Shown: positions 82 to 8,358 of the stretch, one piece after another
Numbering within the stretch: position 1 is the stretch's first letter
Layout: each line of letters opens with the position of its first letter
The notes under the pieces: model-generated
The model's input: the letters and a program-made list of their open reading frames with translations, nothing else
Database searches by the model: none
Told to the model about the DNA's origin: nothing
NCBI GenBank assembly: GCA_001950395.1
Contig: BDLO01000001.1
Span: 1,463,979-1,527,978, forward strand
Source of the DNA: Coriobacteriaceae bacterium EMTCatB1
Lineage (GTDB): Bacteria; Actinomycetota; Coriobacteriia; Anaerosomatales; Anaerosomataceae
Length of the DNA: 64,000 bases
Direction: 5' to 3'
Program-made: the position numbers and the translations under genes

Positions 82-608
82 TGTGGATACTGGGGAAAAC
101 GCAGGATTCTATCGTGTGGAACCTGTGGATAACGCTTCACGCGCGATTGTTGGAGGTTTCTGCCCTCTGCTAGAATCGCCGCTGTCGCAGAGCTGGGATA
201 GATCGGCTCTTGACCTTGAAAAACTGCAGGTAAACGCCCTGTCCATACCGAATGACGCACGGAACTCGCGCAATGCGCCGCATCAGTGGCGCCACATTGC
301 GCGACCCGGTCGGCCGATTGTCCACCCTATCCACAGTGGTGGTTCGCACAACCGGTCTCGCCGACCCGTTTTCTTGGGTTTTCCATCGCGGCCTCGTTCG
401 CGCGACGGTGTTCGAGGGTGCTTTCCGGGCCTTGATTCCTCGATTGTCCACAGATGTGGAAACCTCTGTGGATATCGGCGGAAAGCAGCCGCTCGAGGCA
501 TTCCGCGCCCTTCGGCTACCGGTCGCTGCCGTGGAGGGATCGTTCGTGTCCTTCGTCTCGGTCCGTGCGAATCGATGTGGACAAGTTTGTGGACGGCTTT
601 GTGGATGC
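82..608. other. oriC: oriC-like DnaA-box cluster, upstream part
   Basis: This 632-base non-coding stretch holds about eleven DnaA-box-like nonamers. In TGTGGA orientation they are at 82-90, 115-123, 124-132 (TGTGGATAA, a perfect box), 455-463, 467-475, 576-584, 588-596 and 600-608. In TNTCCAC orientation they are at 318-326, 327-335 and 444-452. Some boxes abut head-to-tail (115/124, 318/327). Others repeat every 12 bp (455/467 and 576/588/600). An AT-richer stretch lies at about 60-82. Together with the downstream dnaA this indicates one half of the chromosomal origin. Bases 1-80 show nothing else recognisable. The boxes are seen directly; origin function is inferred. Confidence 0.8.
147..176 (+). 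promoter_or_regulatory. Candidate promoter of the dnaA operon
   Basis: TTGTTG at 147-152 and TAGAAT at 171-176 are separated by 18 bp, a sigma-A-like spacing. The promoter lies inside the upstream DnaA-box cluster, with a perfect box just before it at 124-132. Transcription of the ATPase-dnaA operon could therefore be subject to DnaA autoregulation. The operon control is inferred from position only. Confidence 0.4.
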
Positions 609-632: not shown

Positions 633-1463
633 ATGAGACAGTTCTACGGCGAGGCGGGCTCGGCGCACGCCAGTACGCTTCTTGATCGCCGATCTCACGC
701 CCCTACGTCGTATCGCCTTTCCGACACCAGGGGTTCGCTTCGCGCACGGATCGCCGTGTACGACTCGCCCGCAGCCCCGCCGCGCGTGCAGGACGTGTCC
801 TCAGACGAGCCGTGCGATTTCATCGACAAGCTATCGTCGACCGTGTACGAGTTGTCTCATCAGGCCGGGGGATCCATACCGTTCGTCGTGATCCGAGAGA
901 TAGCAGAGAACCTCATCCACGCCGACTTCCGCGAGGCCGTCATCACGATCCAGGACGGCGGCAACACTGTCCGCTTCTCCGACCAGGGTCCTGGCATCCC
1001 CGACAAGGAGCGTGCGCTGCTGCCTGGCTTCTCCACCGCGTCTGCGAGCATGAAAACCGTCATCCGCGGGGTCGGCTCCGGTCTCCCGGTTGCGCGAGAG
1101 TGCCTGTCTTTCAGCGGCGGTACGCTGTCGCTTGATGACAACCTTGGACAGGGAACGGTCGTTACGCTGTCTGTCTCTGCACCCGCGACGCATCCTCGCG
1201 CGAGCCAAAGCCGCGAGACCTCGTCGATCCCGCGTCTTTCTACGAGGCAGAAGCAGATCTTGTCGCTCGCCCTCGAGCTCGGCGCCATCGGGCCGTCGGC
1301 TGTGTCGCGCGAGCTCGGCATCGGCCTTTCCACGGCCTACCGCGACCTCGAAACTCTCGAGCGGCTTTCGCTGCTTGCGTGCGACGACACCGGGAAGCGC
1401 TCGCTCACTCCTCTTGGGGAGCGTGTCCTCGTCCAGCTCCTTGAAGGGGGAGCGGGGCTATGA
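633..1463 (+). CDS. GHKL-ATPase / winged-helix protein preceding dnaA
   Basis: This 276-residue protein of unknown role combines an Hsp90/histidine-kinase-type ATP-binding fold with a C-terminal winged-helix domain. The N-box (E88..N93) is in IREIAENLIHADF, G1 is DQGPGIP near 117-123, and G2 is GVGSG near 146-150. The HTH-like segment spans about 202-265 and contains AVSRELGIGLSTAYRDLE. No His-phosphorylation domain, sensor domain or membrane segment is visible, so it is not an ordinary sensor kinase. The start at 633 was chosen because GGAGAGGGGG precedes it; the frame extends further upstream, but through the DnaA boxes. Its stop overlaps the dnaA start as ATGA, implying translational coupling. 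A nucleotide-responsive regulator of replication initiation or of the dnaA operon is plausible but is only inferred from position. Confidence 0.8.
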   Translation: MRQFYGEAGSAHASTLLDRRSHAPTSYRLSDTRGSLRARIAVYDSPAAPPRVQDVSSDEPCDFIDKLSSTVYELSHQAGGSIPFVVIREIAENLIHADFREAVITIQDGGNTVRFSDQGPGIPDKERALLPGFSTASASMKTVIRGVGSGLPVARECLSFSGGTLSLDDNLGQGTVVTLSVSAPATHPRASQSRETSSIPRLSTRQKQILSLALELGAIGPSAVSRELGIGLSTAYRDLETLERLSLLACDDTGKRSLTPLGERVLVQLLEGGAGL

Positions 1464-2842
1464 CCCTCGTCGATACCACCACCTTGTGGTCGCAAGCTCT
1501 CGAAGTCGTGCGCTCCGAGCTCAACACGCCGACGTTCAAGACGTGGTTCGAGCACACTGCGCCCCTGCGTTTTGTCGAGGACGTCTTTGTTGTGGGGGTG
1601 GCGAACGAGTTTGCTCGCGATTGGCTGGAGTCACGCTACTCAGGGCTGCTGGCCGCGGCCTTGAGTCAAGCAGCGGGCCGGCCCTTGAAAGTCGCGTTCG
1701 AAGTCTCTGAGGTCTCCGCGAACCTCGCAGACAGGGCCGCCGTCGAGACCCAGCACGAGCCCGATCGCATGCCGGGCCCGAGCACTCGTCGCCGGGACGA
1801 TGGGGACGGCGGGTTCAACCCGAAGTACACCTTCGACTCGTTCGTCGTCGGATCCTCGAACGAGTTCGCCTACCACGCTGCTCTCGCCGTGGCCGAGACT
1901 CCCGGCGGTGCGTACAACCCTCTCTACATCTACGGAGGTGTAGGCCTCGGCAAGACGCATCTTCTGCAGGCCATAGGCCACTACGTAGCCGCGAGCTTTC
2001 CCCACAAGAAGGTCAAGTACGTGTCGAGCGAGCAGTTCACGAACGACTTCATCAACTCCATCGGCGATCGCGACAAGAGCCGCATCGATGGCTTCCGGCG
2101 GCAGTACCGAACCAATGACGTTCTCCTCGTGGACGACATCCAGTTCATCGCCGGCAAAGAGCAGACCCAGGAGGAGTTCTTCCACACGTTCAACGCGCTT
2201 CAGCAAGCCGGAAAGCAAATCGTCCTCTCGTCGGACAAGCCGCCCAAGGACATCGGTAACATCGAGGATCGCCTGCGGAGCCGATTCGAGATGGGTCTCA
2301 TCACAGACATCCAACCCCCTGAGCTGGAGACGCGCATCGCGATCCTTCGACGCAAAGTCGAGGCTGAGCGCTTGCTGGTGCCAGACGAGGTGCTTTCTTT
2401 CGTGGCTGAGCGCATCGCCAGCAACATCAGGGAGCTCGAAGGTGCCTTGATCAGAATCGTGGCGTTCAGTTCGCTCACACGAACACCTATAGACCTTGAT
2501 CTTGCGTCTGCGGTGCTTAAAGACATCTTCCCAGAGCGCACGGCGCGACCAATCTCCATCTCAACCATCCAACAGGAGGTATGCAAGTTCTACGGAATCT
2601 CGAAGAGCGACCTTACCGGCAGCAAGCGCTCTCAGACCTACGTCTATCCTCGGCAGATAGCCATGTACCTTGCACGCGAGTTGACTGACTTCTCTTTGCC
2701 TCGGATCGGACAGGAGTTCGGTGGACGCGATCACACGACCGTGATACACGCCACAGCCAAGATCCGGAAGCTCATGAACGAGCAGCGCGAGGTTTACAAT
2801 CAAGTCCAGACGCTGACAAACCTCATAAAGCAGCGGAGTTGA
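1460..2842 (+). CDS. dnaA: Chromosomal replication initiator protein DnaA
   Basis: DnaA binds DnaA boxes and, as an ATP-bound filament, opens the origin and loads the helicase. All four domains are present in 460 residues. Domain I spans about 1-90 (WSQALEVVRSEL...FKTWF) and a variable linker follows at about 90-120. The AAA+ core has Walker A GGVGLGKT at 159-166, Walker B LLVDDIQF at 222-229 and the arginine-finger region RLRSRFEMG at 271-279. Domain IV carries the DNA-binding signature GGRDHTTVIHA at 421-431. The start overlaps the previous gene's stop by 4 bp. A second DnaA-box cluster follows the stop. Identification is certain. Confidence 0.99.
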   Translation: MTLVDTTTLWSQALEVVRSELNTPTFKTWFEHTAPLRFVEDVFVVGVANEFARDWLESRYSGLLAAALSQAAGRPLKVAFEVSEVSANLADRAAVETQHEPDRMPGPSTRRRDDGDGGFNPKYTFDSFVVGSSNEFAYHAALAVAETPGGAYNPLYIYGGVGLGKTHLLQAIGHYVAASFPHKKVKYVSSEQFTNDFINSIGDRDKSRIDGFRRQYRTNDVLLVDDIQFIAGKEQTQEEFFHTFNALQQAGKQIVLSSDKPPKDIGNIEDRLRSRFEMGLITDIQPPELETRIAILRRKVEAERLLVPDEVLSFVAERIASNIRELEGALIRIVAFSSLTRTPIDLDLASAVLKDIFPERTARPISISTIQQEVCKFYGISKSDLTGSKRSQTYVYPRQIAMYLARELTDFSLPRIGQEFGGRDHTTVIHATAKIRKLMNEQREVYNQVQTLTNLIKQRS

Positions 2843-2870: not shown

Positions 2871-3024
2871 TGTGGAAAAACGCCGTGGATTGTCGATACC
2901 TCATGGATTCGCCCGAGCTTGTGTGCGGACCGGTGTTCTATCCACAACCTGTTTCCTCATGGATACACCCGAGACGAACTCGAAATACCCAGGTTATCCA
3001 CATTGTCCACAGCTCTGATTATTA
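2871..3024. other. oriC: oriC, dnaA-dnaN part, with adjacent DnaA boxes and AT-rich element
   Basis: The 218-bp dnaA-dnaN spacer carries CTATCCACA at 2938-2946, a perfect TTATCCACA at 2994-3002 immediately followed by TTGTCCACA at 3003-3011, and a reverse-oriented TGTGGAAAA at 2871-2879. Past the tandem boxes lies a short GC step and then TTATTA at 3019-3024. This arrangement resembles the box-GC-trio layout of the Bacillus-type unwinding element. Melting at this spot is an inference. Together with 82-608 it makes a bipartite origin flanking two genes. Confidence 0.75.
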
Positions 3025-4161: not shown

Positions 4162-5262
4162 GTGTCGTTCCTGATCGACCGCATCACGCTCGAGAACTTC
4201 AGGAACCACAGGTCCTTGGAGGTCGGACCGCTGGGAGGAACGACGGTCGTCCTTGGACCGAACGGCGCAGGCAAGACGAACGTCCTCGAAGCCATAGACC
4301 TCGTCGTAAGCGGAAGGTCGTTCCGGAACGCCCGGCTAGAGGACATCGTCACGTGGGGCGAACACCGTGCTTGCGTAACCATGCGCGGCCTCAGGGACTC
4401 GACCGAGGTCGTAATCCAGGAACGGTTCGACGTGGACGGCGATCGCAGGCTGTCTGTTGATGGTCTCGAACGCAAGCGTAGAAGCGAGGCGCTTCACGGG
4501 GCGCACACCGTGGTGTTCAGACCAGACGACCTCGAGCTGGTCAAGGGGCCTGCGGATGCGAGAAGAGATGCCCTCGACGCGCTCGGAAGCAGACTATCGG
4601 AGGTATACGCACACACCCGCAGGGAGTACCACAAGGTCGTGCGGCACCGGAACGTGTTGCTGAGGGAGTGGAAGGCGTCATCGGCCGACCTGGAGGTATG
4701 GACGCTTCAAGCGATCGTGCTGGGGGCGCGTCTTCTCGTGCACAGACGAAGGCTCGTGGCACGGCTCTTCAGCAACATCCGGGAGAGTCATAGCAGACTG
4801 AGCGACGGGCAGGAGCTCACGGTCGAGTATCACGACAGGTGCGGACTGGGCATCACGGATCCGGCAGTGGAGCTGACAGTTGAAGAAGCACGAGAGGCCC
4901 TCGCGTCGGAGTTTGCCGCGCGTTCAGAAGACGAGCGCAGAAGAGCGACGACTGTAGTCGGACCCCACCGGGACGACATCGTGCTGTTGCTCGACGGCAG
5001 AGAAGCACGGCGGTTCGCCTCCCAAGGACAGCAGAGAAGCATCGCGCTCGCGTGGCGCATCGGCGAGGTCGGCACGATCGAGGACGTGTCAGGGGAACGG
5101 CCTATCCTGCTTCTGGACGACGTCATGTCGGAGTTGGACGAGAGCAGGAGGAACGCGCTCCAGACGTGCATGAGCGAGGCCGCGCAGACGATACTGACGA
5201 CGACCGATCTGTCGCACGTGCGTGCGACCCGCGGAGACGCCGTCGTCGTCGAGCTGGGATGA
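4162..5262 (+). CDS. recF: DNA replication and repair protein RecF
   Basis: RecF is an SMC/ABC-like ATPase that acts with RecO and RecR to load RecA at gapped DNA. The 366-residue protein opens with the family hallmark ITLENFRNHRSLE. Walker A GPNGAGKT is at 32-39. The C-terminal part carries the ABC-type QQRS segment near residue 290 and the Walker B region ILLLDDVMSELDESRR near 315-330. Translation starts at GTG, three bases after the dnaN stop. Position between dnaN and dciA is the classical arrangement. Confidence 0.98.
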   Translation: MSFLIDRITLENFRNHRSLEVGPLGGTTVVLGPNGAGKTNVLEAIDLVVSGRSFRNARLEDIVTWGEHRACVTMRGLRDSTEVVIQERFDVDGDRRLSVDGLERKRRSEALHGAHTVVFRPDDLELVKGPADARRDALDALGSRLSEVYAHTRREYHKVVRHRNVLLREWKASSADLEVWTLQAIVLGARLLVHRRRLVARLFSNIRESHSRLSDGQELTVEYHDRCGLGITDPAVELTVEEAREALASEFAARSEDERRRATTVVGPHRDDIVLLLDGREARRFASQGQQRSIALAWRIGEVGTIEDVSGERPILLLDDVMSELDESRRNALQTCMSEAAQTILTTTDLSHVRATRGDAVVVELG

Positions 5263-5266
5263 GGAG

Positions 5267-5776
5267 ATGGGCAGGACCAAAAGGATCGGCAAGGCGGTCC
5301 GGGCGGGCGACATCGCCGAGACGTTGTTGAAGCGGAGCGACCGCCGCGGAGGCCTGGCTGGCGCGCGCGTGTGCAGGGCGTGGGATGTCGTCGCAGGCCC
5401 GGCCGTCGCCGCCCACTCCAAAGCGGTGCGCGTGACTGAAGGCGAGCTCCTCGTGGCGGTCGATTCCCCGGCGTGGGCGAGCGAGCTTTCGTTGATGAGC
5501 GCGCAGTTCTTGGCGGAGCTGCAACGCAGATTCGGAAAGGACGCGGTAAGGACCATCCGCTTCAGTGTGTCGAGGGCCGTGCACATGCGCAGCGAGTCAG
5601 ACGAGAGGCCGGCTGCAGAAGCCGATGTCGCGAACCGGCCGACGCAGGAGGAGATCGAAGCCGCGTTGAGCGAGGTTCCGCCAAGCGTCACAGACCCGGT
5701 ACTCAGGAACGCCATCGCGAGAGCGTCTGCTGCCTTGCAGAAGACGCGGAGCTCACGGTCCGACACGTCCTTGTAG
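5267..5776 (+). CDS. dciA: DciA-like protein (DUF721)
   Basis: DUF721/DciA proteins are ancestral helicase operators that load the replicative DnaB helicase in bacteria lacking DnaC. This 169-residue protein shows the domain core at about 10-100: a W in CRAWDVVAGPAVAAHS, then GELLVAVDSPAWASELSLM. These match the W..VVG..ia.hs / L.V.v.s.aWa.eL pattern. The C-terminal half is charged and low in structure (about 105-169). ATG 5267 lies 4 bases past the recF stop with GGATGAGGAG just before it. Its place between recF and gyrB is typical for actinobacteria. Assignment is by motif and position. Confidence 0.88.
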   Translation: MGRTKRIGKAVRAGDIAETLLKRSDRRGGLAGARVCRAWDVVAGPAVAAHSKAVRVTEGELLVAVDSPAWASELSLMSAQFLAELQRRFGKDAVRTIRFSVSRAVHMRSESDERPAAEADVANRPTQEEIEAALSEVPPSVTDPVLRNAIARASAALQKTRSSRSDTSL

Positions 5777-7830: not shown

Positions 7831-8358
7831 ATGGGCGATGTCCCGCGCAGAGAGCCACGGAAGTTCGAGCCGCCTCCTTGGGAGCGCGAAGCCTTCGAGG
7901 AGCTGAGGCGCCGCAAAGAGCAAGAGCAGGCGGAACGGGAGCTCGAAGAGGCGCTGGAGCGAGCGCGCGTGGCAGCGGAGCAACCGCCGGCGGAGCAGGC
8001 CGGAGCTCCAGAGGCGAGGCCGGTCGCGGAGCAGGCAGCTCCCCAGGGCGAAGGTCGTCCGGCACAGATAGACGAGCGTCAGGTGGAGCGGATGCTGATC
8101 CAGCTCTCGCTCGAGGAGCCGAGGGCGACCCAGCAGGTCTCGACGGTCGCCACGGCTGTCGCGGCAGGCATGGCGGCAGCAGGGCTCGGGTTCGTCGTGT
8201 GGTCCGCTGTGCTGTTCGCGCGGACGCGAGCGACCACCGACGCCGTGCCAGCGGCATCGCCGCTGGTGACGACGATCGCGTCGCTGCTGATGATGCTGTG
8301 GGGCTTCATGATGATCGGCGGCGCTGTGCTGCTGTGGAGAAGGCACAACGTGCGATGA
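7831..8358 (+). CDS. Small membrane protein between gyrB and gyrA, function unknown
   Basis: This 175-residue protein belongs to no family I recognise. Residues 1-95 are highly charged and Pro/Glu/Ala rich. They include a predicted coiled coil around 20-55 (EELRRRKEQEQAERELEEAL) and a Gln/Pro/Glu-rich linker. Two hydrophobic helices follow at about 105-127 and 145-167, and the protein ends in WRRHNVR. This suggests a membrane anchor with a cytoplasmic acidic/helical arm. GGAGGCGGG precedes the ATG. It sits 29 bases after gyrB, and gyrA's start region follows directly, so it is probably co-transcribed with gyrase. Any link to supercoiling or the nucleoid is speculation. Confidence 0.72.
   Translation: MGDVPRREPRKFEPPPWEREAFEELRRRKEQEQAERELEEALERARVAAEQPPAEQAGAPEARPVAEQAAPQGEGRPAQIDERQVERMLIQLSLEEPRATQQVSTVATAVAAGMAAAGLGFVVWSAVLFARTRATTDAVPAASPLVTTIASLLMMLWGFMMIGGAVLLWRRHNVR

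Follow-up and report, generated by a model that had tools for sequence, protein, structure and literature searches.

In the Coriobacteriaceae bacterium EMTCatB1, dnaA is the second gene of its operon. The first gene encodes a protein that joins a GHKL-type ATPase domain to a winged helix-turn-helix (wHTH), which raises the question of whether this protein controls the initiator with which it is co-encoded. DnaA regulators are known from a few model bacteria, and a gene fixed beside dnaA across early branches of the Actinomycetota, gut Coriobacteriia included, is a concrete candidate for one. If true, an ATP-binding switch tied to initiator expression would bear on how the nutrient or energy state of the cell reaches replication. 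The reading that we favor, with a probability of roughly 0.6, is a DNA-binding protein, switched by ATP, that regulates the origin region and the dnaA operon to which it belongs. We infer this function from a strict linkage to dnaA, which is directly observed, an invariant ATP site, a retained wHTH, a conserved promoter and a structural match to the protein DIP2311, all of which support it.

Gene order and DnaA boxes at the origin

The window, i.e., the whole 64,000-nucleotide stretch of contig BDLO01000001.1 analyzed here, carries the genes from parB to rpmH on its minus strand, followed by a non-coding stretch of about 0.7 kb that contains DnaA boxes. The plus strand then continues with the GHKL gene, dnaA, a second cluster of DnaA boxes, dnaN, recF, dciA, gyrB, and gyrA (Table 1). 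A Shine-Dalgarno-like GGAGAGGGGG precedes the ATG of the GHKL gene at 633, the purine-rich GGGGGAGCGGGG precedes the dnaA ATG at 1460, and dnaA starts inside the stop codon of the GHKL gene (ATGA). A sequence-only reading of this DNA had described both the 276-residue protein, with its N, G1, and G2 boxes, and the ATGA overlap, and our coordinates agree with it. Its proposal of translational coupling by this overlap is not supported as a general feature, the overlap being a local detail: among the loci of relatives, the 4-base overlap is general only in the window's genus and possible in a few others, and most have a short gap between the two genes, usually 9-150 bp and up to about 170 bp. The same reading had regarded this place as one that in most bacteria holds rpmH or no gene. 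Here, rpmH is not displaced but lies divergently upstream of the GHKL gene, beyond the first DnaA-box cluster. Further downstream, dciA (PF05258, 9.6e-21) is located at 5222-5776 between recF and gyrB, an arrangement as described for Actinobacteria, and 7831-8358, between gyrB and gyrA, encodes a 175-residue protein that matches no Pfam family and is hydrophobic in its C-terminal half.

Table 1. Features of the dnaA operon and the surrounding origin in the window
Feature	Position	Strand	Characteristics
Upstream origin half	82-584		Exact DnaA boxes at 124, 444, 576; one-mismatch boxes at 82, 318, 327, 467; conserved in the family
Probable operon promoter	147-176	+	TTGTTG-18 bp-TAGAAT with extended -10 TGC; called by conservation
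Conserved motif, candidate operator	216-236	+	TTGAAAAACTGCAGGTAAACG; conserved in the window's family
GHKL ATPase and winged-helix gene	633-1463	+	276 aa; first gene of the dnaA operon
Residues 1-33, variable N-terminal tail	633-731	+	pLDDT 30-35; unconserved in alignments A1/A2
Residues 38-57, ARIAVYD...PRV strands before the ATPase fold	744-803	+	A41, Y43, P50 at least 90%; strands 36-42 and 51-57
Residues 86-182, GHKL ATP-binding domain	888-1178	+	E89/N93 (N box), D117-G121 (G1), G146-G150 (G2)
Residues 199-276, winged helix	1227-1460	+	STAYRDL recognition helix, GKR wing; R237 in 82/88, R256 in 83/88
dnaA	1460-2842	+	Bac_DnaA 2e-72, Bac_DnaA_C, DnaA_N; 4-base overlap with the GHKL gene
Downstream origin half	2871-3011		DnaA boxes at 2871, 2938, 2994, 3003

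Exact TTDTCCACA boxes occur six times in the 64 kb against an expectation of 0.18, and all six fall within 124-584 or 2871-3011. These two clusters flank the GHKL-dnaA pair and form an origin in two parts with the gene inside it, in line with the sequence-only reading. The sign of the GC skew switches near the dnaA-dnaN junction, close to the downstream half. The position between two DnaA-box clusters is one argument for a direct role at initiation, in which the ATP form would bind the origin or DnaA and promote or block orisome assembly, with transcription being secondary; the protein would then play, in this taxon, the part that SirA, YabA, Hda, or DiaA/HobA play elsewhere. DciA provides a precedent, having also been a gene of the origin operon that proved to be a replication factor recognized through its place at the origin (PMC5109545; PMC5720831). 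Adjacency is, however, equally compatible with transcriptional control, and on balance we regard a direct role as rather unlikely, while it is the most serious of the alternatives.

Linkage to dnaA and history of the gene

Of 396 Coriobacteriia genomes, 341 gave a match to the GHKL gene in a single-sequence search, as did 294 of the 314 near-complete ones. A profile search across the phylum found it in 157 of 396 sampled genomes, in many families outside the class. Conservation across the Coriobacteriia, which the sequence-only reading had suggested as a check, thus extends far beyond them. With each distinct protein counted once, 111 loci include enough flanking DNA, and in every one of them dnaA follows downstream in the same orientation, no more than 400 bp away; the other 12 loci end at a contig end. 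This outcome is the reverse of the one that had been named as refuting the proposal, absence of the gene beside dnaA in relatives, and it also rejects a chance neighborhood. In complete chromosomes numbered from dnaA, the linkage continues correctly across the join. The gene is single copy, with no unlinked copy in the 111 loci, and it stands between rpmH and dnaA wherever an examined locus shows both, inverted cases excepted. We found no match for the protein in 50,697 phage records and reject a phage origin. One locus labeled Bacillota (L010) comes from a metagenome bin, and its DnaA groups among those of the Actinomycetota.

The inverted cases are three genomes of one family (L058, L073, and L080/L160 in f19), in which the GHKL gene and dnaA are jointly inverted with respect to rpmH and to dnaN-recF-gyrB, so the pair is kept together where its neighbors are not. 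This co-inversion is also an argument for a direct role at initiation. It bears as well on the passenger idea, in which the protein is a general regulator that acts on the transcription of unrelated genes and has merely stayed in a stable operon. Gene order at the origin is slow to change, and rpmH, dnaN, and recF are stable neighbors too, but the pair stays joined where inversion separates dnaA from dnaN and rpmH, and a single-copy gene without one unlinked copy in 111 loci makes a passenger very improbable. The regulator reading gains further from sequence evolution: pairwise distances among the GHKL proteins parallel those among the DnaA proteins (r = 0.74, 98 pairs), in keeping with co-inheritance of the two genes, and dN/dS against two congeners is about 0.17-0.21 with dS near saturation, indicating purifying selection.

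Most absences within the order have a technical cause. Among 17 genomes of the same order without a match to the GHKL gene, 12 also lack a dnaA match at the cut-off used, and in G093 and G143 the contig begins inside or near dnaA, so that these absences are assembly gaps. Real losses, with the rpmH-dnaA interval intact, are seen in G059, G129, G137, and three genomes of genus g45 (family f20); the gene is also missing from G409, G423, and a few further genomes outside the class. On a DnaA tree of 85 rows, the distribution of the gene requires 10 changes, compared with 23 when its presence is shuffled. A single group, supported by 91% SH-aLRT, unites 15 genomes without the gene, including one of 9.2 Mb. 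The simplest reading of this unrooted tree is an old, vertically inherited gene that was lost once in the group of 15 and sporadically elsewhere. As several lineages live without it, the gene is not indispensable, which counts against the regulator reading, and that it can be lost counts against a direct role at initiation too.

The ATPase domain and the winged helix

The HATPase_c match of the window protein (1.7e-12) is over the Pfam cut-off, PF02518 matched all 88 family members, and both the boxes and the fold place the protein in the GHKL superfamily. In an alignment of 88 relatives, N93, H96, D117, G119, G121, G146, G148, and G150 are invariant, and E89, a GHL-type catalytic glutamate four residues before N93, is present in 87. 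The invariance of N93 and of all G1 and G2 glycines, together with E89, shows that ATP binding is under selection, and we strongly predict from these residues that the protein binds ATP. No Pfam or NCBIfam model provided a name for the whole protein.

GyrB, MutL, Hsp90, and SpoIIAB carry the catalytic Glu four residues before the Mg-binding Asn, and histidine kinases usually have Asn there. Most histidine-kinase N-box motifs from the same genome indeed have Asn where the GHKL protein has E89. The catalytic domains of histidine kinases share the GHKL fold and the ATP boxes with the window protein but differ from it in this residue, in having a phospho-acceptor domain and in lacking a wHTH behind the ATPase. 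In agreement with the sequence-only reading, no HisKA or other phospho-acceptor domain turned up, either among the Pfam matches of the window protein or among the families most widely shared by the 88 members. The lack of an acceptor domain and the Glu at position 89 argue for an ATP switch and against a two-component kinase; a histidine kinase remnant is rejected on the same grounds.

The Glu/Asn pair is shared with SpoIIAB/RsbW and with the GHL ATPases GyrB, MutL, and Hsp90, and is predicted to support hydrolysis or serine phosphotransfer. The protein might thus be a serine kinase or anti-sigma-like switch descended from the SpoIIAB/RsbW branch that acts on a partner protein and uses the winged helix for targeting. 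SpoIIAB structures are among the profile hits, and the spIIAB model TIGR01925 weakly matches 30 of the 88 members (best 3.5e-7), the window protein not being listed. Histidine-kinase domains, however, match better than SpoIIAB, and the origin neighborhood in the window contains no gene for an anti-anti-sigma partner, which makes such a kinase improbable. SpoIIAB has no wHTH and about half the length of the window protein, and the transducer domain of GyrB and MutL is absent from the latter.

The C-terminal wHTH is under the Pfam cut-off in the window protein itself and is recovered in the family, where IclR/TrmB/MarR-type models match most members. An AlphaFold2 model, built from four sequences only (mean pLDDT 74), shows two conserved strands at 36-57, the ATPase fold and a winged helix, with the first 32 residues unstructured; confidence is low for these residues and for the lid. 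Residues 197-276 of the model match MarR-type wHTHs with Z of about 12-13. The wHTH noted in the sequence-only reading is thus recovered by two routes, and DNA binding is strongly predicted from sequence and model. Relatives of 395-504 residues have a longer linker and retain the winged helix. L139, L143, L144, L146, L147, and L080 represent several Coriobacteriia families in which an extra 100 to 300 residues separate the ATPase from the winged helix; in L080, this longer linker is partly Q/A/P-rich.

The best PDB match of the ATPase part of the model, ranking top in Foldseek as well as VIA, is DIP2311 from Corynebacterium diphtheriae (3LMM), which we take to carry a wHTH as well. The GHKL domains align with Z 14.6 and 2.7 Å over 149 residues, and the Foldseek alignment spans nearly the whole model, whereas identity is 16% and DIP2311 is much longer. 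Neither AlbA_2 (PF04326) nor HATPase_c_4 (PF13749) was reported in the window protein or its family, which sets them apart from the DIP2311 type, and we know of no dnaA linkage for DIP2311.

Proposed mechanism and the upstream region

ATP switching, a target in the upstream region and an effect on dnaA expression or initiation are the parts of the regulator reading that we infer. The GHKL domain would bind ATP and probably act as a slow ATPase in which E89 serves as the general base. ATP binding may shift the state of a dimer or of the lid and thereby alter the DNA affinity of the winged helix, which would bind the origin and promoter region upstream of its own gene. Binding there would determine how strongly the GHKL-dnaA operon is transcribed and perhaps also how DnaA accumulates on the upstream boxes. 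A broader proposal, which we put forward tentatively and hold to be possible rather than probable, is a new mechanistic class of bacterial replication control in which a GHKL ATPase reads ATP/ADP and uses a winged helix at the origin to adjust both the supply of DnaA and the assembly of the orisome. Such a system would have been present in the ancestor of the Actinomycetota and lost in the lineage with the large-genome species.

If the regulator reading is right, the protein shares its role with Hda, YabA, SirA, DiaA/HobA, SeqA, and Soj, none of which is, to our knowledge, a GHKL-wHTH protein. Mycobacteria lack recognized homologues of such DnaA regulators (PMC5720831). DciA resembles the GHKL protein as another product of an origin-operon gene whose function was long unknown, but its fold and its role, that of a helicase operator (PMC5109545), are unrelated. 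The GHKL and winged-helix parts are known as such, while their combination locked to dnaA is new to the open-access literature that we searched, in which no paper describes it. Its place directly before dnaA throughout the early branches of the Actinomycetota makes the putative regulator a strong candidate for a previously unnoticed controller of the time of chromosome copying in these bacteria.

The region in front of the gene contains a conserved promoter-like element. An extended -10 (TGnTAnAAT) lies at the corresponding position, 440-490 bp ahead of the gene, in every genome of the window's family that was checked. A simple consensus promoter scan did not list the window's promoter because TTGTTG and TAGAAT fall under its cut-off, and the call rests on conservation. 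In L015-L039, a motif distinct from the DnaA box, AAA(A)nnnGCWGGT(A/C)R, begins 53-54 bp downstream of the extended -10; it can recur as many as four times, the copies alternating in orientation and spaced by about 80 and 69 bp. Its model was built from 19 genomes, and family f10, which was held out, shows the motif at the same positions. Conserved promoter and fixed-spacing repeat suggest a putative operator region. Motif discovery in other clades returned only low-complexity or coding patterns.

We reject the repeat as a proven binding site of the GHKL-wHTH protein. The three g45 genomes (L204-L206) lack the gene yet retain one strong copy, so that 216-236 cannot be claimed as the site of this protein, and motif matches in family f35 resemble rpmH promoter sequence. 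A gene-bearing sister genome also has one strong copy. In the window only the first copy, at 216-236, is strong, and it is one of the two matches to the strict form of the motif in the 1.84-Mb genome.
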